25,853 nucleotides of DNA, taken from positions 1 to 25,853 of the IMG/VR virus record IMGVR_UViG_3300032267_000055. One strand, given 5' to 3'. This DNA comes from a virus. Every line of letters starts with the position of its first letter. The stretch's first letter is position 1. Below, one piece after another: positions 17,819 to 25,853 of this stretch. The notes under the pieces are model-generated. The model had not been told where the DNA came from. It worked only from the letters and a program-made list of their open reading frames with translations, and did not search any database. Made by a program: the position numbers and the translations under genes.

Positions 17819-19149
17819 TTCAACTCCTCCAATGCAATATCTGAAATAACGCGTTTGTCATGCAACGCTGCCCAAATCCGTTCGTCTACGGACTTATTGG
17901 TTAACAAAATGTAACACCATACGTCTTCGGTTTGACCAGAGCGATGCAAGCGCCCAACAGTCTGCTCAAAGAGTTCTAGGCTCCACGGCAACGATACAAA
18001 CACAATTTTGCTACCGCCATGCTGTAGGTTTAGCCCATGCCCAGCGGACTTGGGGTGGATTAGTAATAGCTCAATCTTGCCCTCGTTCCAACGCTCAATG
18101 GCCTTGGAATCGTTAATCGTCTGGGCGTGTGGGTAACGGCGTTTTAGTTCAGCCAATTCCTCAACAAAGTTATAAACAATAATGGTATTGGCGTGCTGGT
18201 TTTCCTCAATCAATTCGTCTAACAAATCAAACTTGTGGCTAGAAAACCACACAGGTATATTGCTGACGTTCATTTTGCCAGGCGTGTCCGACGCCGTTGT
18301 TTCAGTCTTGTATATAAAACCTGACGCCATCTGCTGTAACTTGCCTGTGACGACTGCAGCGTTCATGGCTGTGATCTGCTCGGTGCCAAACTGAACTGCA
18401 AACTCTTTTTTCATCTTTTCGTATGGCGCGCGGTCTGCCATGTCGCACCGCATTTCGACCATGTGCAAGTCAGGCAGCTTGTCCTTGTAAGCGCCAGCTT
18501 CTAAAACAAAGGTTGCGGGTTTAATTTGTTTCATTACGGCCTCCAAAGAACCTACACGTGGCGCCCATTCGCCAAAATCTTTATTGATGCAAACAAAGTA
18601 TTGCTGCATAAACGCACCTTTGCTACGACCTAGCAAGGACTGATCGACAATTTTGCACTGCCCAAACACGTCCTCAAGACCATTACTGGTAAAGCTACCC
18701 GTCAAGCCCCACCGCACTTTGATCTTGTCAATAATCTTAATCAACGCCTTAAACCGCGCCCCGCTTGGGTTTTTAAGGCGCGTTAGTTCGTCAAACACAA
18801 TGGCGTCAAAGTCTAATGGCTCTTGGGCTAACCATTGAATATTGTCGTAGTTAGTTACCACTACGGGAAAACCCGAATGAAATGCTTGGCTGCGCTGGGC
18901 AGCCGTGCCGACCGCTACAGCGAGTGGCATATCAGGCGCCCACTTAGGCTGCTCAATCGGCCATACGTCCGTACAAACACGTTTAGGGGCTAAAACAAGC
19001 CAACGCTTGACGATACCATGCCGTAGCATTTCATCCATGCCTGTGAGCGTAATGGCGGTCTTACCAGCGCCTACAGGGGCTAGCACCATGGCTCGATCGT
19101 TGGAGTACAAAAAGTCAACGGCGCGTTCTTGGTAAGGGCGCAGTTTCAT
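17815..19149 (-). CDS. SNF2-type superfamily 2 helicase / translocase
   Basis: A 444-residue DEAD/SNF2-like ATPase acting on duplex or forked DNA, probably in replication or recombination. Visible motifs are Walker A GAGKT (residues 27-31) after an opening KLRPYQ, motif II DELT (120-123), motif III LTGSFTSN (149-156), motif V SAGHGLNLQ, and motif VI GRLHRSGQ with arginine finger (399-406). I placed the start at ATG 19149, which overlaps the VRR-NUC stop by ATGA. A TTG at 19167 would add six residues. Its partner nuclease lies directly upstream, a combination known from many phages. No nuclease domain is fused. The length is normal for the compact phage form. Confidence 0.9.
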   Translation of the reverse strand: MKLRPYQERAVDFLYSNDRAMVLAPVGAGKTAITLTGMDEMLRHGIVKRWLVLAPKRVCTDVWPIEQPKWAPDMPLAVAVGTAAQRSQAFHSGFPVVVTNYDNIQWLAQEPLDFDAIVFDELTRLKNPSGARFKALIKIIDKIKVRWGLTGSFTSNGLEDVFGQCKIVDQSLLGRSKGAFMQQYFVCINKDFGEWAPRVGSLEAVMKQIKPATFVLEAGAYKDKLPDLHMVEMRCDMADRAPYEKMKKEFAVQFGTEQITAMNAAVVTGKLQQMASGFIYKTETTASDTPGKMNVSNIPVWFSSHKFDLLDELIEENQHANTIIVYNFVEELAELKRRYPHAQTINDSKAIERWNEGKIELLLIHPKSAGHGLNLQHGGSKIVFVSLPWSLELFEQTVGRLHRSGQTEDVWCYILLTNKSVDERIWAALHDKRVISDIALEELK

Positions 19150-19421
19150 TGATTTTCTTTCATCCAAGTGTCAATATGGTCGGTTGACCACAGGCAGGCG
19201 TAATTCTGTTGTAAGGTCTTAAGGTTATGGGCGTGAACCTTTTGCAGCATGGACAGCTTGCCACTTTCGGTCTTGAGTTCTACAAACCACACCACTCCGC
19301 CTGGCAAACAAACGATGCGGTCGGTCACGCCGCGCTGGTTCGGCGATTTAAACTTGTACGCAATTCCGCCCATCTTTTTGACGGCCCAAACAAAATATTT
19401 TTCAATGTCTTTTTCTTTCAT
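19146..19421 (-). CDS. VRR-NUC domain nuclease
   Basis: A 91-residue stand-alone VRR-NUC (PD-(D/E)XK fold) protein. Catalytic residues are visible: Glu7 in KDIEKYF, Asp34 in RGVTDRI, Glu48 and Lys50 in FVELKTE, and Gln60 in SMLQKVH. This family is thought to cut branched or flap DNA together with the SNF2 helicase encoded next to it. I chose ATG 19421; an upstream in-frame start (19475) would add 18 residues but would run through the promoter. No Shine-Dalgarno site is evident. The predicted transcript start lies only about 15 bases upstream, so the leader is very short. Confidence 0.88.
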   Translation of the reverse strand: MKEKDIEKYFVWAVKKMGGIAYKFKSPNQRGVTDRIVCLPGGVVWFVELKTESGKLSMLQKVHAHNLKTLQQNYACLWSTDHIDTWMKENQ

Positions 19422-19442
19422 GTAAAAAAGTTTAGCACACAA

Positions 19443-19471
19443 ATTATTTTTATGGTACAGTGGAATCTCAA
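19443..19471 (-). promoter_or_regulatory. Sigma70-type promoter for the minus-strand operon
   Basis: Read on the minus strand: TTGAGA (plus-strand 19466-19471; 5 of 6 consensus), a 17-base spacer, then AATAAT (19443-19448; 5 of 6). Spacing is ideal. Transcription would start near 19436 and reach the nuclease ATG at 19421 after about 15 bases. Confidence 0.75.
19453..19461 (+). promoter_or_regulatory. Possible extended -10 promoter for the plus-strand replication genes
   Basis: TGG followed by TACAGT forms a TGn-type extended -10 with no recognisable -35. It lies between the -35 and -10 of the opposing promoter, so the two could not be occupied at once. Start would be near 19468. Support is modest. 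Confidence 0.35.
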
Positions 19472-19493
19472 TCACTACAGTAAAGGAAAGTAA

Positions 19494-20624
19494 ATGGCCT
19501 CACATTCTCAGATCGTCGGCGGGTCGACCGCCAAGCGGGTAATCAACTGCCCAGGCTCCGTAGCGCTATGCGCCAAGATGCCCCCACAACCGTCTAGCAA
19601 GTACGCTAACGAAGGAACTTTTTTACACAACATCATTGCCGAGGTGCTAGAACATGACAAAAAACCAACAGACTTTTTGGGAACCACGTATGAAGGAATT
19701 ACGTTCACTAAAGCTCTTTTGGAAGATAAGTTATATCCTGCTCTTGATTTACTTAACAAGGTTGATCCTGACTGCCAAATGGATATCGCCGTCGAAACAA
19801 GAGTGGGCTTTGGGGATTTTCTTAGCGATGTTTTTGGTTCTACTGATCTGCTTGGTCGGATTGGGAAACGCGCTATCGTTTTGGATTGGAAGTTTGGTGA
19901 CGGGGTAGCCGTAGAAGCTGAAGAAAACCCGCAGCTGATGTTTTATGCGGCAGCTGCCATGCGTACTCCTGAAGTGCAATGGGTGTTTGAAGGCGCTACC
20001 GAGATTGAGTGCATCATTGTGCAACCTCCTGAAATCAAACGATGGACAACCACGCCTGAGCGCATTAAGCAGTTTGAACAAGAACTCAAGATGGCCGTTA
20101 AGTTAGCCAAAAAAGATGATGCGCCTCTTAAAGTAGGCGATCATTGCCGTTGGTGCGCTGCCAAGCCTACTTGCCCGTTAATGACCGGCGCAGGCGATCG
20201 TGCCTTGACCATTGCTGTTGGCGACATTGATGTGATGCAGATCAACGACTATTTAAGCAAGGCAGATATGCTCGAGCAATGGATTAATGATCTGCGTGCT
20301 TTGACCTTTACCATGCTAGAGTCAGGCGCCGTAGTGCCAGGCTGGAAGCTGGTTGCCAAACGTGCTACACGCCAATGGGTAGACGAAAATCAAGCCCTAG
20401 TAACCATGATGAATGAGGGTATTACTGAAGAAGAATTGATGGTTTCTAAAGTAATATCTCCTGCTCAGGCAGAAAAAGTATTGAAAAAGCATGGCAAGTC
20501 ATTGCCTGCCGATCAAGTAGTAGCAGTCAGTAGTGGCAGTACGTTGGCGCCTGAGAGCGATCCCAGACCAGCGCTTTTACAACTAGGTAAGCAGTTATCT
20601 GCTGCCTTTTCTAAACTTCAATAA
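19494..20624 (+). CDS. DUF2800-like PD-(D/E)XK nuclease with Fe-S cysteines (Cas4/RecB-like)
   Basis: A 376-residue exonuclease-type protein probably acting in phage recombination or end processing. The RecB/Cas4 pattern is visible: CPGS near the start (Cys19), EGTFLH (Glu40, His45), GSTDLLG (Asp118), LDWKFGDG (Asp131, Lys133) and NPQLMFYAAA (Gln147, Tyr151). Cys218, Cys221 and Cys227 (HCRWCAAKPTCP) with Cys19 make the four-cysteine set that holds a 4Fe-4S cluster in Cas4 and AddB. The C-terminal third is helical and may contact the partner encoded next. GGAAAG precedes the ATG, and a divergent promoter region lies upstream. It forms an operon with the next gene 11 bases downstream. Confidence 0.85.
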   Translation: MASHSQIVGGSTAKRVINCPGSVALCAKMPPQPSSKYANEGTFLHNIIAEVLEHDKKPTDFLGTTYEGITFTKALLEDKLYPALDLLNKVDPDCQMDIAVETRVGFGDFLSDVFGSTDLLGRIGKRAIVLDWKFGDGVAVEAEENPQLMFYAAAAMRTPEVQWVFEGATEIECIIVQPPEIKRWTTTPERIKQFEQELKMAVKLAKKDDAPLKVGDHCRWCAAKPTCPLMTGAGDRALTIAVGDIDVMQINDYLSKADMLEQWINDLRALTFTMLESGAVVPGWKLVAKRATRQWVDENQALVTMMNEGITEEELMVSKVISPAQAEKVLKKHGKSLPADQVVAVSSGSTLAPESDPRPALLQLGKQLSAAFSKLQ

Positions 20625-20635
20625 AGGAAACAATA

Positions 20636-21289
20636 ATGTCAAATATCGTAACTTTCGCAGGTGCAAACCTACCTTCCGTCAAAGACCTTTCTACCGCTTT
20701 GCGTTCTATCGAAGCTGAGATTGGGCCAGCAGGCACAGTCATCATCAAGATGGACAAGACAGGGCATTGGGTCTTTGGTGCAGATCAAACTGAAATTGAG
20801 GACGAATCTACTTGGGCAATCAATCCCTTGTCATTTGTGCATGGGTATATTGCTTGGGGTGATGGAGAAGTTCTTGGTGAGAAGATGGTGTCTGTATCTC
20901 AGCCATTGCCCGAACTAGAGCCTGCGCCACCAAATGCCAAAAAGGGTTGGGAAACGCAAGTTGGTATGTCAATGAAGTGTCTTTCTGGCGAAGATAAAGG
21001 TTTAGAAGCGCGTTACACCACAACCTCGGTTGGTGGCAAGCGTAGCGTACAAGCCTTGGCTGTAGCCATTGCAACGCAAGTTGAGAAGGATCAAAGCAAA
21101 CCTGTGCCAATCGTTATGCTTGGTAAAGAGCATTACACGCACAAGAGCTATGGCCGTATCTTCACCCCCATCTTTGCAGTTCAAGAATGGGTTGGTATGG
21201 ACGGTGATGCTGTTGAAGCGCCTAAAGAGATTGAAGCGCCTGAAGCCGTAGAAGCAGCCCCAGCACGTCGGCGTCGTAGCGCGGTATAA
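20636..21289 (+). CDS. Probable ssDNA-binding protein, partner of the DUF2800 nuclease
   Basis: A 217-residue protein with AAAGGAAA upstream. Residues 1-185 look like one or two beta-rich domains (GPAGTVIIKMDKTGHWVFG, PLSFVHGYIAWGDGEVLGEK). The tail is acidic, made of repeated EAPE/EIEAPEAVEAAP, and ends RRRRSAV. Acidic tails are typical of phage single-stranded DNA-binding proteins that recruit partners, although such tails usually end in acidic, not basic, residues. It occupies the position of DUF2815-type proteins next to DUF2800, but I do not see a clear DUF2815 signature. An annealing or single-strand-binding role is inferred from context. Confidence 0.65.
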   Translation: MSNIVTFAGANLPSVKDLSTALRSIEAEIGPAGTVIIKMDKTGHWVFGADQTEIEDESTWAINPLSFVHGYIAWGDGEVLGEKMVSVSQPLPELEPAPPNAKKGWETQVGMSMKCLSGEDKGLEARYTTTSVGGKRSVQALAVAIATQVEKDQSKPVPIVMLGKEHYTHKSYGRIFTPIFAVQEWVGMDGDAVEAPKEIEAPEAVEAAPARRRRSAV

Positions 21290-21320
21290 AGGATAGGGGT
21301 GGTTAGGCAGACCCTCGAGG

Positions 21321-21398
21321 ATGTTGCAAGTGTGCTTTTTTTCTGCCTTCCAGCACACGTGTATTAGCAACCAAATTGACACCCCACTCTTATTATGA
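21321..21398 (+). CDS. Possible 25-residue leader peptide of the DNA polymerase
   Basis: This ORF reads MLQVCFFSAFQHTCISNQI then DTPLLL. Its TGA (21396-21398) overlaps the polymerase ATG by ATGA, and the polymerase itself has no Shine-Dalgarno site, so coupling would explain initiation. Initiation of the leader is uncertain: GAGG directly abuts the ATG, while a GTG at 21330 has GAGG nine bases upstream. The ORF also spans the hairpin at 21330-21358. Confidence 0.35.
   Translation: MLQVCFFSAFQHTCISNQIDTPLLL
21330..21358 (+). promoter_or_regulatory. Hairpin in the polymerase leader
   Basis: GTGTGCT (21330-21336) pairs with AGCACAC (21352-21358) around a 15-base pyrimidine-rich loop. The right arm runs into the palindrome ACACGTGT (21354-21361). 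It may regulate translation or bind a protein. It lacks a following T tract, so it is not an obvious terminator. Confidence 0.4.
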
Positions 21399-23356
21399 CA
21401 ATACTTTGGCTTGATTTTGAAACCCGTAGCCGTTGCGACTTACCTAGTCGTGGCGTCTACAACTATGCACAAGATCCGAGTACGCAAGTGCTGTGCATGA
21501 GCTATGCCTTTGACGATGAAGATGTCGTTACATGGCTTGCGGATCAACCATTTCCTGCCCGTGTTGCAAATCACACGGGTCAAATACGAGCGCACAACGC
21601 TGCTTTTGAACGCCTAATTACCTGGTACGTCTTGTGCGCAGACAAAGGTATCCCTGAACCAAAGCTAGAACAGTTCTATTGTACGGCAACGCAAGCCCGT
21701 GCCAACTGCGCTCCAGGCTCATTGGAAGATGTTGGTCGCTTTGCCGGTGCCAATATGAAGAAGGATCACCGAGGCAAGCAGTTGATCCGTGCGCTGTCAA
21801 TCCCACGATCAGATGGCACGTTTAACGACGACCCAACACTTATGGCCGAGATGGTGGCGTATTGCGAACAAGACGTAAAGGCCATGCGCTCAATTAGCAA
21901 AGCGATGCGTGACTTGTCAGATGAAGAACTATTGGATTACCATGTCAATGAGCGCATTAACGATCGCGGTGTGTTGCTTGATAAGCCATTAGCCGAGTCT
22001 GCAATTCGGTACGCCAGCCATGAGTTAGGTGAAATCGAAGCGATTGTGGAAGAAGTGACTAACGGAGAGATTACGTCGGTGCGCTCCCCTCGCATGAGGG
22101 ATTGGGTACTAGAACGTGTCGGCTCACAAGCCAAGAAGTTAATGGAGTCGTACAAAGATGGTGATAAGAAGTACAGTATTGATAAGACTGTACGTGCCAA
22201 TTTATTGATTTTAGCGGAGGAAAACCATGACGAAATTCCACACCACGTCGCAGACGTTATCCAGTGCGCAGATGACCTATGGGCATCCTCTGTCGCTAAG
22301 TTCAAACGTGCTGCCGACCTCGCTGATGAGGGCGATGGACGAGTTAGAGGTGCTTTTGTCTTTGCTGGCGGAAGCGCCACTGGGCGAGCTTCAAGCTATG
22401 GATTACAAGTACACAACTTCCCACGACGTTGCGCTGTCGATCCTGAAGCCGTTAGACAGGCGATGGTTAGAAGCCACGCAATTGTCCCTGCCTTTGGAAG
22501 ACGCGTTACAGACGTGCTTAAAGGAATGTTACGGCCAGCTTTGGTACCCGCTTTGGGAAAGACCCTTGTCGTAGCCGATTGGTCTGCGATTGAAGCACGC
22601 GTAACACCTTGGGTATCTGCCCACCGCAGTAGCATTGATAAGCTAGACCTATTTCGCACAGGCGAGGATGTCTACAAGGTCAATGCAGCTAAGACCTTTA
22701 GTGTGCCATTGCACAAGGTTGATAAGGATCAACGTCAGATTGGCAAGGTGCAAGAGTTGGCTTGCGGATTCGCTGGTGGTGTGGGCGCGTTTGCTGCGAT
22801 GGGTCGCATTTACGGCGTGATTATGACCGAATCTGAAGCCAAACGCATGGTCAACGGCTGGCGCCTAGCTAACCCGTGGGCGGTGTCGTATTGGAGCGAT
22901 CTTGAGGACGCTTACACCCGTGCCATGCGCAATCCAAACCATGAATTTACCGCAGGCAAAACGACCTATATGTATGATGGTTTACACCTATGGTACGCAC
23001 TTCCGAGTGGTCGCGTGTTATGCTATCCGTTCGCCCAAATTGATGTTGACGGAGTGTCCTACGCCAAAGCGTCTTGGAAACCTGCCGCTGACGCTAAAGA
23101 GTGGCCAAGGGCGCGTTTATGGAAAGGACTTGCGTGCGAGAACATTACTCAGGCAGTAGCCAACGACCTTTTGCGGTACTCATTACGAAATTTAGACAAT
23201 GTAGTTCTTCATGTGCATGACGAGATTGTGGTCGAAACGCATGAACCCGAAGCAGTAAAAGCAGAAATGGAGCGCGTGATGTGTACACCACCCGCTTGGG
23301 CGACAGGTTTGCCTTTAAGTGTAGAAGTCGGTGTGATGTCACGCTATGGTAAGTAA
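21395..23356 (+). CDS. Family A DNA polymerase with 3'-5' exonuclease
   Basis: A 653-residue replicative phage polymerase. The proofreading domain is intact: DFET (Asp7, Glu9), HNAAFER (about 67-73) and YCEQD (Tyr156, Asp160). Polymerase motifs are SATGRASS (327-334), motif A VVADWSAIEAR (Asp395), motif B QRQIGKVQELACGFAGG (Arg447, Lys451) and motif C HVHDE (608-610). There is no 5'-nuclease domain. Phe at the usual ddNTP-discriminating O-helix site is not obvious: motif B here reads ACGF. No ribosome site is visible, so translation may be coupled to the leader ORF ending at 21398. It acts with the primase-helicase encoded next. Confidence 0.95.
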   Translation: MTILWLDFETRSRCDLPSRGVYNYAQDPSTQVLCMSYAFDDEDVVTWLADQPFPARVANHTGQIRAHNAAFERLITWYVLCADKGIPEPKLEQFYCTATQARANCAPGSLEDVGRFAGANMKKDHRGKQLIRALSIPRSDGTFNDDPTLMAEMVAYCEQDVKAMRSISKAMRDLSDEELLDYHVNERINDRGVLLDKPLAESAIRYASHELGEIEAIVEEVTNGEITSVRSPRMRDWVLERVGSQAKKLMESYKDGDKKYSIDKTVRANLLILAEENHDEIPHHVADVIQCADDLWASSVAKFKRAADLADEGDGRVRGAFVFAGGSATGRASSYGLQVHNFPRRCAVDPEAVRQAMVRSHAIVPAFGRRVTDVLKGMLRPALVPALGKTLVVADWSAIEARVTPWVSAHRSSIDKLDLFRTGEDVYKVNAAKTFSVPLHKVDKDQRQIGKVQELACGFAGGVGAFAAMGRIYGVIMTESEAKRMVNGWRLANPWAVSYWSDLEDAYTRAMRNPNHEFTAGKTTYMYDGLHLWYALPSGRVLCYPFAQIDVDGVSYAKASWKPAADAKEWPRARLWKGLACENITQAVANDLLRYSLRNLDNVVLHVHDEIVVETHEPEAVKAEMERVMCTPPAWATGLPLSVEVGVMSRYGK

Positions 23357-23392
23357 AAAAATACCCCCACAAGCACGTGAAACTTGTAGGGG
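23355..23392 (-). terminator. Minus-strand intrinsic terminator between polymerase and primase-helicase
   Basis: Read leftward, CCCC-TACAAG pairs with CTTG-TGGGG (nine pairs, one bulged base) around a nine-base loop, followed by TA and seven T (A-run 23355-23361 on the plus strand). It would stop transcripts entering the polymerase gene antisense. On the plus strand the hairpin has no T tract. GGGG 23389-23392 can instead pair with CCCC 23397-23400. Confidence 0.65.
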
Positions 23393-23403
23393 CAAACCCC
23401 AGT

Positions 23404-23410
23404 AAAGGAG
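23404..23410 (+). promoter_or_regulatory. Ribosome binding site deciding a TTG start
   Basis: AAAGGAG lies seven bases before TTG 23418, the only suitable start codon, so the primase-helicase most likely begins with TTG. The site follows directly after the alternative GGGG/CCCC hairpin, which could mask it. Confidence 0.75.
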
Positions 23411-23417
23411 TAGTCAC

Positions 23418-25718
23418 TTGAATAACTTTTTAGAATATATCACAGGTTTAGCCCCAGAAGGTGAAACCGCCTTAATTGTCCGCCAAAAACCACAGTTACA
23501 GGGTGGTGAGTTGCAGTTTCATGCCGATGGCGTGATTAAATGCACTTGGCCGTCTTTCTTGCCTAGTCACAAAATGCGTGATAACGAAGCATGGTACGGC
23601 AACACCGGCTCGTTTATCGTCGATCGCTTTACCGAAGGCAAACCTAGCGCCTCGTCAGCAAATTGCGAGTACGTGCTGGTAATGATGCTTGACGACATTG
23701 GCACCAAGTCTAAAGAGCCACCGCTTGCGCCTACTTGGATTATGGAAACATCCGAAGGTTCATTCCAATGGGGCTATGCTTTTAAAGAACAACCCAGCAA
23801 GGGCGACTTTACGGCAGCTATTAAGGCAATCGCCAAGGCAGGCTTTACCGATCCAGGCGCAACAAACGCCGTTCGCAATTTCCGTTTGCCAGGCTCTGTG
23901 AATCTGAAGCCTGGACGCGATAACTTCGCCTCCCGCTTGGTAGAGTTTCACCCTGAGCGTGAGTTTAACCTTGAGGACATCTGCGCAGCGCTTGACGTAG
24001 TGCCTGAAGCGGCTGATACGGCTACGGCTGAGTCGGTTAAGCTCGTTGACACAGGCAAAGATAAGGTATTGACATGGCTAAACGACCAAGGTTTAGTCCT
24101 ATCGAATGTGAATCGTGAGGGCTGGGTAGCAGTAGTTTGCCCAAACAATGCCGAGCATACAACGGGTGAGATCGAGGCACGCTACAAGCCCCTTGATCGG
24201 TCATTCTGTTGCTATCACGGCCATTGCCAAGAGTTAGGCAGCCGTGAGTTTTTATCGTGGGTATCTGAGAACGGTGGTCCTGATGTCGATCACGGTCTGC
24301 GTGATGAGCTATTAGCAGAAAAGATGAACTTAGCCCTGTCAAAATTAACCCCTAACGAAATCTATCGTGACACCGCAGCAGAGCTTATTGCAGAGGTTGA
24401 ACGCAAAGAGCTTGGCCGTATAGAAAAAGCCGAGTGGTATCAGCGCTTTGCTTACATCCAAGACGATGAGTCTTACTTTGATATGCAAGACCGGCGCGAG
24501 GTAAGCCGTCAGACGTTCAACGCTTTGTTCCGTCATATCCCCTGCAAGTCCATTCATTCAGGGCGCAAAGTGGAAGCATCAATCTGCTTTGACGAGAACC
24601 GTCAAGTGATGGGCGCCAAGGCGCTTGTGGGTGTGACATACGCTGCGGGTGAGGGTGTGATCGTTACGCGTGATGGTGACCTGTTCGGTAACCGTTGGCG
24701 TGACGCAAGACCGGAGCTATCAGGTGCAAACAACGGCGGCATTGATATGTGGATGAAACACTGCCAGGAACTTGTGCCTGAGCAAGCCGAGCTAGATCAT
24801 ATTTTTGATGTGATGGCGTTTAAGTTACAAAACCCGAAGATCAAGGTAAACCACGCAATCTTGCACGCAGGCGATGAGGGTAGCGGCAAAGATACGTTTT
24901 GGGCGCCGTTTATTTGGGCAGTCTGTGGCGACCATCTAAAGAACCGCGGCATTATGGATAACAATTCTGTAACGTCCCAATGGGGTTATCAATTAGAGTC
25001 AGAGGTCCTGATCATCAACGAATTAAAAGAGCCTGACGCTGCAACGCGTCGGCAATTAGCTAACCAACTAAAGCCAATCATTGCTGCGCCGCCTGAGATG
25101 CTGCCGGTTAATCGCAAGGGCTTGCACCCGTACATGATGGCTAATAGATTGTTTGTCTTGGCATTTAGTAATGACCCTGTGCCTATCTCGCTAGCGTCGC
25201 AAGATCGCCGGTGGTTCTGCGTGTGGTCTACCGCCCCGCGCATGGACAGCAATAAAGCTAAAAAGATTTGGGATTGGTATAGAGCGGGAGGGTTTGCCTG
25301 CATAGCAAAATGGCTTATGGTTCGGGATGTATCTACATTTAATCCTTCAGCGCCTCCAATGTGGACTGAATTTAAAGCAAACCTAGTAGAGCATGGCATG
25401 AGCATGGCTGAATCGTATTTAGTTGAGATGTTACGCAACAGGGTGGGGGAGTTCAATAAAGGTGTAATTGGCTCCCCTTTTCATTCTTTGTGTGATCGTT
25501 TAGCGGGTGCGGCGCCGTCAGGTGTTAAGGTGCCGCAGGCTGCGTTATTGCACGCTCTTAAAGAAGCAGGGTGGGTAGATCGCGGGCGCTTAAAATCGCG
25601 CGACTATGACACCAAAAAACACGTTTTTGCGTGTCCAGAAATGGCCGATCTTTCTAAATCTGAATTACGTAGAATGGTAGAAGAAAATCCGCAGCCCAAA
25701 ATGGTTTTAGTTAAGTAA
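23418..25718 (+). CDS. Primase-SF3 helicase fusion (RepB-primase / DUF5906 type)
   Basis: A 766-residue replication protein with a TTG start. Residues about 55-195 are a primase-polymerase-like domain: acidic pair Asp92-Asp93 in VMMLDDIG, SFQWGYAF (115-122), and RNFRLPGSVNLKPG (153-166). Residues 241-270 contain C-P-N-N-x2-H and CCYHGHC, a likely zinc knuckle. The C-terminal half is a superfamily 3 / D5-type helicase: Walker A GDEGSGKDT (485-493), an acidic motif LIINELKE (Glu535), sensor FVLAFSND (Asn585) and DRRWFCVW. It would load at the origin, unwind DNA and prime synthesis for the polymerase upstream. The last about 160 residues look helical and basic. Its stop lies at the edge of a 23-bp repeat array that may be its binding site. 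Confidence 0.9.
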   Translation: MNNFLEYITGLAPEGETALIVRQKPQLQGGELQFHADGVIKCTWPSFLPSHKMRDNEAWYGNTGSFIVDRFTEGKPSASSANCEYVLVMMLDDIGTKSKEPPLAPTWIMETSEGSFQWGYAFKEQPSKGDFTAAIKAIAKAGFTDPGATNAVRNFRLPGSVNLKPGRDNFASRLVEFHPEREFNLEDICAALDVVPEAADTATAESVKLVDTGKDKVLTWLNDQGLVLSNVNREGWVAVVCPNNAEHTTGEIEARYKPLDRSFCCYHGHCQELGSREFLSWVSENGGPDVDHGLRDELLAEKMNLALSKLTPNEIYRDTAAELIAEVERKELGRIEKAEWYQRFAYIQDDESYFDMQDRREVSRQTFNALFRHIPCKSIHSGRKVEASICFDENRQVMGAKALVGVTYAAGEGVIVTRDGDLFGNRWRDARPELSGANNGGIDMWMKHCQELVPEQAELDHIFDVMAFKLQNPKIKVNHAILHAGDEGSGKDTFWAPFIWAVCGDHLKNRGIMDNNSVTSQWGYQLESEVLIINELKEPDAATRRQLANQLKPIIAAPPEMLPVNRKGLHPYMMANRLFVLAFSNDPVPISLASQDRRWFCVWSTAPRMDSNKAKKIWDWYRAGGFACIAKWLMVRDVSTFNPSAPPMWTEFKANLVEHGMSMAESYLVEMLRNRVGEFNKGVIGSPFHSLCDRLAGAAPSGVKVPQAALLHALKEAGWVDRGRLKSRDYDTKKHVFACPEMADLSKSELRRMVEENPQPKMVLVK

Positions 25719-25831
25719 AAAACGGGAGCGTTGCCCTGCAAAAAACGGGAGCGTTGCCCTGCAAAAAACGGGAGCGTTGCCCTGCAAAAAACGGGAGCGT
25801 TGCCCTGCAAAAAACGGGAGCGTTTGCCTGC
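25717..25831 (+). repeat. Five tandem 23-bp repeats, iteron-like candidate origin
   Basis: The unit is six A followed by CGGGAGCGTTGCCCTGC. Units are 25717-25739, 25740-25762, 25763-25785, 25786-25808 and 25809-25831. The first four are identical, and the last differs at two bases (GTTTGCCTGC). There are no spacers, so this is not a CRISPR array. Each unit carries a weak dyad (GGG...CCC) and an A tract spaced at 23 bases, near two helical turns. It begins on the last bases of the primase-helicase stop. It could be an origin, a repressor or packaging site, or a terminal repeat. On the minus strand each unit reads as a weak GC dyad followed by a T run. Confidence 0.9.
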
Positions 25832-25853
25832 AAGATTTAAAACAAACTGGTAA

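Follow-up and report, generated by a model that had tools for sequence, protein, structure and literature searches.

The array at the end of the replication module

The window analyzed here, 25,853 nt in length, corresponds to the complete G000 record, an entire IMG/VR fragment of a virus. Its replication module, located at 19146-25718, encodes a VRR-NUC-like endonuclease, a DUF2800 exonuclease, a 217-aa protein, a family-A polymerase and a primase-helicase; P22-type coat genes accompany it. The phage is of the freshwater type, and its nearest deposited relative is MW202483 (Manatee Spring), with a primase identity of 54%. The following features were localized at the 3′ end of the module:

23418..25718, + strand: primase-helicase gene, 766 aa, with a weak RepB_primase-like N-terminus, a DUF5906/SF3-type helicase at aa 485-598 and a predicted C-terminal winged-helix-like region at aa ~661-738
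25279..25301, + strand: unit-like word ATAGAGCGGGAGGGTTTGCCTGC within the primase-helicase gene, 437 nt before the gene end, with 17/18 bases matching the variant unit
25717..25739, + strand: array unit 1, AAAAAACGGGAGCGTTGCCCTGC, whose first bases lie within the primase-helicase stop codon
25740..25762, + strand: array unit 2, same sequence as unit 1
25763..25785, + strand: array unit 3, same sequence as unit 1
25786..25808, + strand: array unit 4, same sequence as unit 1
25809..25831, + strand: array unit 5, AAAAAACGGGAGCGTTTGCCTGC, with 2 substitutions relative to units 1-4
25832..25853, + strand: start of the AT-rich post-array segment, AAGATTTAAAACAAACTGGTAA, whose bases continue likewise in locus L006, truncated here by the contig end

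Based on Pfam, the primase-helicase contains DUF5906 (E 1.3e-9), while the RepB_primase match (E 4e-5) fell slightly short of the cut-off. Additionally, aa 462-603 gave a profile match to the helicase domain of NrS-1 PrimPol (6k9c/6k9e, E 1.4e-5). The last 116 aa were modeled by AF2 with a pLDDT of 80, and a PDB fold search with this C-terminal domain model returned no significant match; the full-length model (pLDDT 40) was too poor for use.

The original prediction described a tandem 23-bp array of four identical copies and one two-base-diverged copy at 25717-25831. This description was borne out by TRF (period 23, 5.1 copies, 97% matches, score 220, 25717-25833), by a scan of the window that tolerated up to 3 mismatches and found no other match to the unit, and by 100 dinucleotide shuffles of the window, which yielded 0 unit matches. 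The position assigned to the array, directly after the stop codon, was also correct, except that the first unit begins within that codon (TAA, 25716-25718; unit 1 from 25717).

The most common form among 71 units of the same type, collected from 22 loci, is the sequence of the last copy, CGGGAGCGTTTGCCTGC. Because the last copy has the common form, the four identical copies are probably a derived, expanded variant, and unit 5 probably represents the ancestral form. The same expanded variant is also present in L006 and L008. The weak GC dyad attributed to the unit is not conserved, as its GGG arm varies without compensation. Similarly, the suggestion of curved DNA was not sustained. A spacing of 23 bp does not keep A-tracts in helical phase, with five bends adding up to ~0.3 of a single bend at 10.4-10.5 bp per turn and to ~0.9 at 10.6 bp per turn; therefore, no strong net curvature is expected. 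A coding role of the array was rejected, since spacings of 23, 24 and 31 bp occur and no frame is kept.

Distribution and types of the array in related phages

An exact 19-mer scan of IMG/VR retrieved 6 further contigs, in each of which the repeat lies directly 3′ of the same gene, and a protein search retrieved 49 relatives of the primase-helicase with identities of 68-90%. After further word scans, 67 distinct loci were obtained, of which 21 carry a type-A array, 5 type B and 10 type C, with 31 having no array. Type A is defined by the unit of the window, type B by GCGTGCCGGTCGCTTTTT or GCCGTTCGCTTTTTGCGT, and type C by AATCGAAAAAAGCGTCT with a period of 25-27 bp. Across the types, the units are tandem, 18-27 bp long and in one orientation in all carriers, and their copy number varies among relatives. 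We refer to the B carriers L021 and L052 as B1 and to L033, L034 and L039 as B2; C73 and C85 denote the C carriers according to their primase identity to the window, ~73% and ~85%, respectively.

The search of other phages that the original prediction had called for found the unit beside the primase-helicase in many of them. In DNA-first scans of IMG/VR, the unit occurs almost only just 3′ of this gene family and on the same strand. All word matches in gene-containing loci are on the gene strand, either +3 to +241 after the stop codon or within the gene at -430, -433 or -469. Seven loci have word matches without a detectable primase gene, one of which (L127) is another piece of an array-carrying contig. 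Across 257 Gb of bacterial genome sequence, 40 scattered single matches were obtained, close to the ~30 that we estimate to be expected by chance. The unit sequence is kept between phages of 44% GC and of 60-62% GC, and in distant clades. Judged by this recurrence, the array is no private slip; many phages conserve it just 3′ of the primase-helicase. It does not mark a genome end, as had been contemplated: in relatives that are closed into circles by an end overlap of 103-127 bp, it lies inside the genome. Neither does it appear to be a requirement, given the 31 relatives of 67 that are without it, and these array-free phages are up to 92% identical to type-A carriers. On the primase tree (without the 73% clade), the array classes need at least 9 changes.

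In L121, an extra ORF lies between the primase and the array, so that the array stays with the operon end and not with the primase gene. Within the first 200 nt after the primase stop, the GTG start of this ORF overlaps the stop codon (GTGA), and the ORF runs on into the first two array units, which specify its C-terminus.

Outside the array, the word at 25279..25301 is the only such site in the window. Using position-weight matrices of the three unit types, with the threshold set on a background of 1.56 Mb, we found 51 sense and 0 antisense unit-like matches in the primase coding sequence (67 genes, 143.6 kb), while the background, taken from elsewhere, contained 15 matches on both strands without sense bias. 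Related genes share positions; therefore, the independent evidence amounts to approximately ten gene positions, all of them sense. In L014, a locus without a 3′ array, a near-complete type-A unit is located in a variable linker of the protein. On these counts, the in-gene unit-like copies are real. Their status as a conserved element was rejected: a peak of synonymous conservation arose from the word-based choice of sequences, and once the sequence sets were defined by clade, the in-gene site was under no overall synonymous constraint (rank 587/756). Since the peak was lost in this control, selection on the in-gene copies is not supported.

The key comparison of array type with the replication proteins came from one clade, in which L119 carries an A-type and L132 a C-type array beside primase-helicases that are 99.0% identical over 778 aa. 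The A and C phages of this clade have 86-97% nucleotide similarity up to the stop codon and none over the array. No alignment column of the primase-helicase separates A from C carriers, nor do the other replication genes, and a search for a phage gene tracking array type or presence returned no convincing candidate. Based on these alignments, the array is an exchangeable module. Unit specificity does not co-vary with the putative initiator protein, contrary to the specific recognition of the unit by the primase-helicase that had been predicted. The primase-helicase alone would not be able to set array specificity unless it reads a minimal core common to the types, namely, an A5-6 tract followed by (G)CG. 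Arrays of different types beside a constant primase-helicase make it probable that this enzyme does not read the unit by itself; the reader may be a host factor, or the minimal A-tract/CG core may be the basis of recognition.

Sequence between the array and the leftward operon

The array is located where the rightward replication operon and a leftward operon converge, and the sequence 3′ of the primase-helicase stop varies by lineage. In type-A relatives, the array gives way to a short AT-rich stretch and then to GC-rich low-complexity sequence hundreds of bases long, beyond which lies the terminator of the leftward operon. The window breaks at the start of the GC-rich low-complexity tract, which explains the contig end. 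In B2 and C85, a rightward terminator and CTGG-rich repeats lie 3′ of the array, together with an AT-rich dyad that is conserved and located between two terminators. B and C85 relatives have an AT-rich region beside the array; that of type A is short, the GC-rich type-A carriers lack it, and in the window it is truncated.

Within 170 nt of the stop codon, 27 of the 31 array-free loci have a rightward intrinsic terminator, but none of the 21 A, 8 C73 and 2 B1 loci do; in most array-free loci, an intrinsic terminator directly follows the stop. The B2 and C85 relatives have both array and rightward terminator. DNA folding z-scores of the 3′ region ranged from -1 to -3 in type A, from -2 to -9 in B and C, and from 0 to -6 in array-free loci, and in most type-A cases the post-array region folds not clearly better than shuffles. 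The post-array tract has 10-mers in common with the intergenic region before terS, which was the top window of the genome in 7 of 9 genomes; one of the 2 exceptions is a partial contig, for which the test is not valid.

Additional observations were made in these regions. Low-complexity tracts of hundreds of bases lie beside the array in L006 (3590-3950), L007 (8480-8700), L024 (2550-2800) and L052 (12460-12610), with units such as GGCGGGC, GGCCGGC, CTGGTCTGGTGT and GGTCGAGCT; some are strongly G-skewed, and assemblies are broken there in several contigs. The region before terS, located from the primase stop at +3300..+3945 in G017 (L077), +1250..+1920 in G010, +2550..+3302 in G003 and +3050..+3600 in G022, is densely occupied by direct and inverted repeats whose cores differ by lineage (TGTCCACA, ATGACCC, ATGACTA, TGACAATTTGACC) and surround a conserved AGCGATT. 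These repeats look like an operator array, a pac region or an origin, and are found with or without the 3′ array. In the array-free clade of L045, L046, L047 and L048, the first 60 nt after the primase stop contain the conserved sequence TAGCCTAGGGCG...TTTAAATCG..CCTAGCGCGTT. On the - strand, at 1345-1998 after the primase stop in L119 and 1403-2056 in L132, a protein of ~217 aa (MQFTIKQSQLKAMLNLASKQDIRYYLNGVFVEFN...) has a domain that by eye is sliding-clamp (DnaN)-like.

Possible roles of the array and comparison with known systems

The array looks like a real control element of replication. Our best single guess, which we hold tentatively, is that it constitutes an oriented, exchangeable array of cis-acting sites ending the replication operon, most likely an accessory origin or helicase-loading element; we prefer this reading because of the precedents of pRN1/BIP-1, lambda/Stx and NrS-1. 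The arrangement has the direct tandem repeats of ~20 bp in uniform orientation that are typical of iterons, in and beside the gene of the putative initiator, the primase-helicase. The uniform strand and the confinement to this gene and its 3′ flank argue for a replication element, and the uniform orientation, in-gene sites and repeat-rich flanks resemble known phage and plasmid origins. Also in its favor are the 10-mers shared with the region before terS, the AT-rich dyad of B2 and C85 and the persistence of the unit across GC contents. Counting against it are the A and C arrays beside near-identical primase-helicases, the 31 array-free relatives, the failure to find a convincing gene that tracks the array, the uninformative GC skew, the missing AT-rich block in GC-rich carriers, the lack of synonymous constraint at the in-gene site and the operon-end position of the L121 array. 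According to this proposal, the array would consist of oriented, iteron-like sites of the protein-binding type and would be the leading part of an exchangeable noncoding module located where the phage replication operon ends. The sites would act in cis in replication, with a repeat-bound protein assisting the opening or priming of neighboring AT-rich or G-rich repeats, as in the lambda, P4 and pRN1 layouts. It is also possible, although doubtful, that the lineage-typed, strand-oriented motif, with whole arrays exchanged between phages of practically identical replication proteins, represents a cassette of the origin-like or RNA-decoy kind, with its specificity determined not by the phage initiator but by another factor, for example one from the host; this would make it a swappable "replication allotype".

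The original prediction was closer to a classical iteron origin bound specifically by the primase-helicase, which we consider very improbable. The position of the array, the predicted C-terminal winged helix and the pRN1-type precedent are in its favor; nevertheless, the array type is decoupled from the protein, and many close relatives lack the array. Of the iteron-origin interpretation, the neighborhood and the plausible class of element have been retained, but not the primase-helicase specificity, the curvature, the genome end or the skew. Regarding the latter, the cumulative GC skew has its maximum near the primase stop and its minimum shortly after in many genomes with and without the array. 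Skew follows the gene strand, with exceptions, in carriers and non-carriers; therefore, it provides no origin signal. A rather unlikely alternative is that proteins bound to the oriented array act as a roadblock in place of an intrinsic terminator, halting or delaying RNA polymerases that converge between the rightward replication operon and the leftward one, and possibly replication forks as well. Operon convergence at the array, the terminator counts given above and the persistence of the L121 array at the operon end despite the intervening ORF are in agreement with such a barrier. However, the B2 and C85 relatives have array and rightward terminator together, and the in-gene sites are left without explanation.

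It is quite unlikely that the array acts as RNA, with the sense 3′ UTR transcript offering repeated binding sites (decoy or sponge) for a host RNA-binding factor or toxin, and the types reflecting host systems. This role would account for the sense-only orientation in the mRNA, in the gene and in the 3′ UTR, for the switch of type between phages with near-identical replication proteins and for the variable copy number, for which the pseudo-ToxI repeats of PhiTE provide a decoy/sponge precedent (PMC3475682). Against it, an Rfam search gave no family match, the hairpin arms of type-A units vary without compensation, and the units (18-27 nt) are shorter than the 36-nt ToxI-like units. A mimic of a type III TA antitoxin (pseudo-ToxI) was rejected on the same Rfam result and uncompensated arms. 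Functionless repeats, neutral or selfish, in which short words multiply by replication slippage and recombination at a site that tolerates them, appear distinctly improbable. Four identical copies, variable copy number, adjoining low-complexity expansions and the patchy distribution, with its at least 9 changes on the primase tree (without the 73% clade), would fit them, but the unit is kept across phages of 44-62% GC and distant clades, and random slippage would not yield one orientation and confinement to one gene and its flank.

If the array is an origin-type element, as we prefer, the near-identical phages with different arrays would provide a natural allele swap with which to identify the reader of an origin under a constant initiator. 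As an RNA or host-factor target, the array would point to an unknown host system driving repeated replacement at one fixed place. Either way, the unit is a DNA word that picks out a group of uncultured phages directly, and the assembly breaks are accounted for.

In phage P4, ori2 lies within alpha and is without iterons, which are located in crr and are bound by alpha. As in P4, the sites described here occur both inside the primase-helicase gene and outside it; unlike P4, where alpha binds the iterons, array type is decoupled from the primase-helicase. In lambda and Stx phages, the iterons are within the initiator gene (PMC7466680). The lambda-type origin has its iterons inside gene O together with an AT-rich region, and Stx phages have 4-6 iterons. 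The present array is similar in having oriented direct repeats of ~20 bp with an A-tract, in or beside the putative initiator gene, and a variable copy number. It differs in that the main array follows the gene, its type is independent of the primase-helicase, many relatives are without it, and the AT-rich block is weak or absent in type A; moreover, lambda iterons are inverted repeats, whereas the type-A unit maintains no dyad. With the PhiTE pseudo-ToxI, the array shares small intergenic tandem phage repeats that expand in number, but those are 36-nt RNA pseudoknot units mimicking a known antitoxin, and no such structure or match was found here.

In pRN1 and, by proposal, in phage BIP-1, an essential origin-like stem-loop is located just 3′ of the prim-pol/SF3 gene (PMC4234260). 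Our array likewise occupies a noncoding region directly 3′ of a gene for a primase and SF3-type helicase, as in pRN1/pRN2 and the Bordetella phage BIP-1; pRN1 needs a 100-bp stem-loop, whereas here the tandem units are the conserved part. Among the traits of pRN1-type proteins, DUF5906 and the match to the NrS-1 helicase are clear, RepB_primase is just short of the cut-off, and the winged helix is predicted from the AF2 model. Finally, NrS-1 PrimPol, whose helicase domain is homologous to that of the window primase-helicase, initiates DNA synthesis where the template carries a specific sequence (PMC7102993, PMC8718748).
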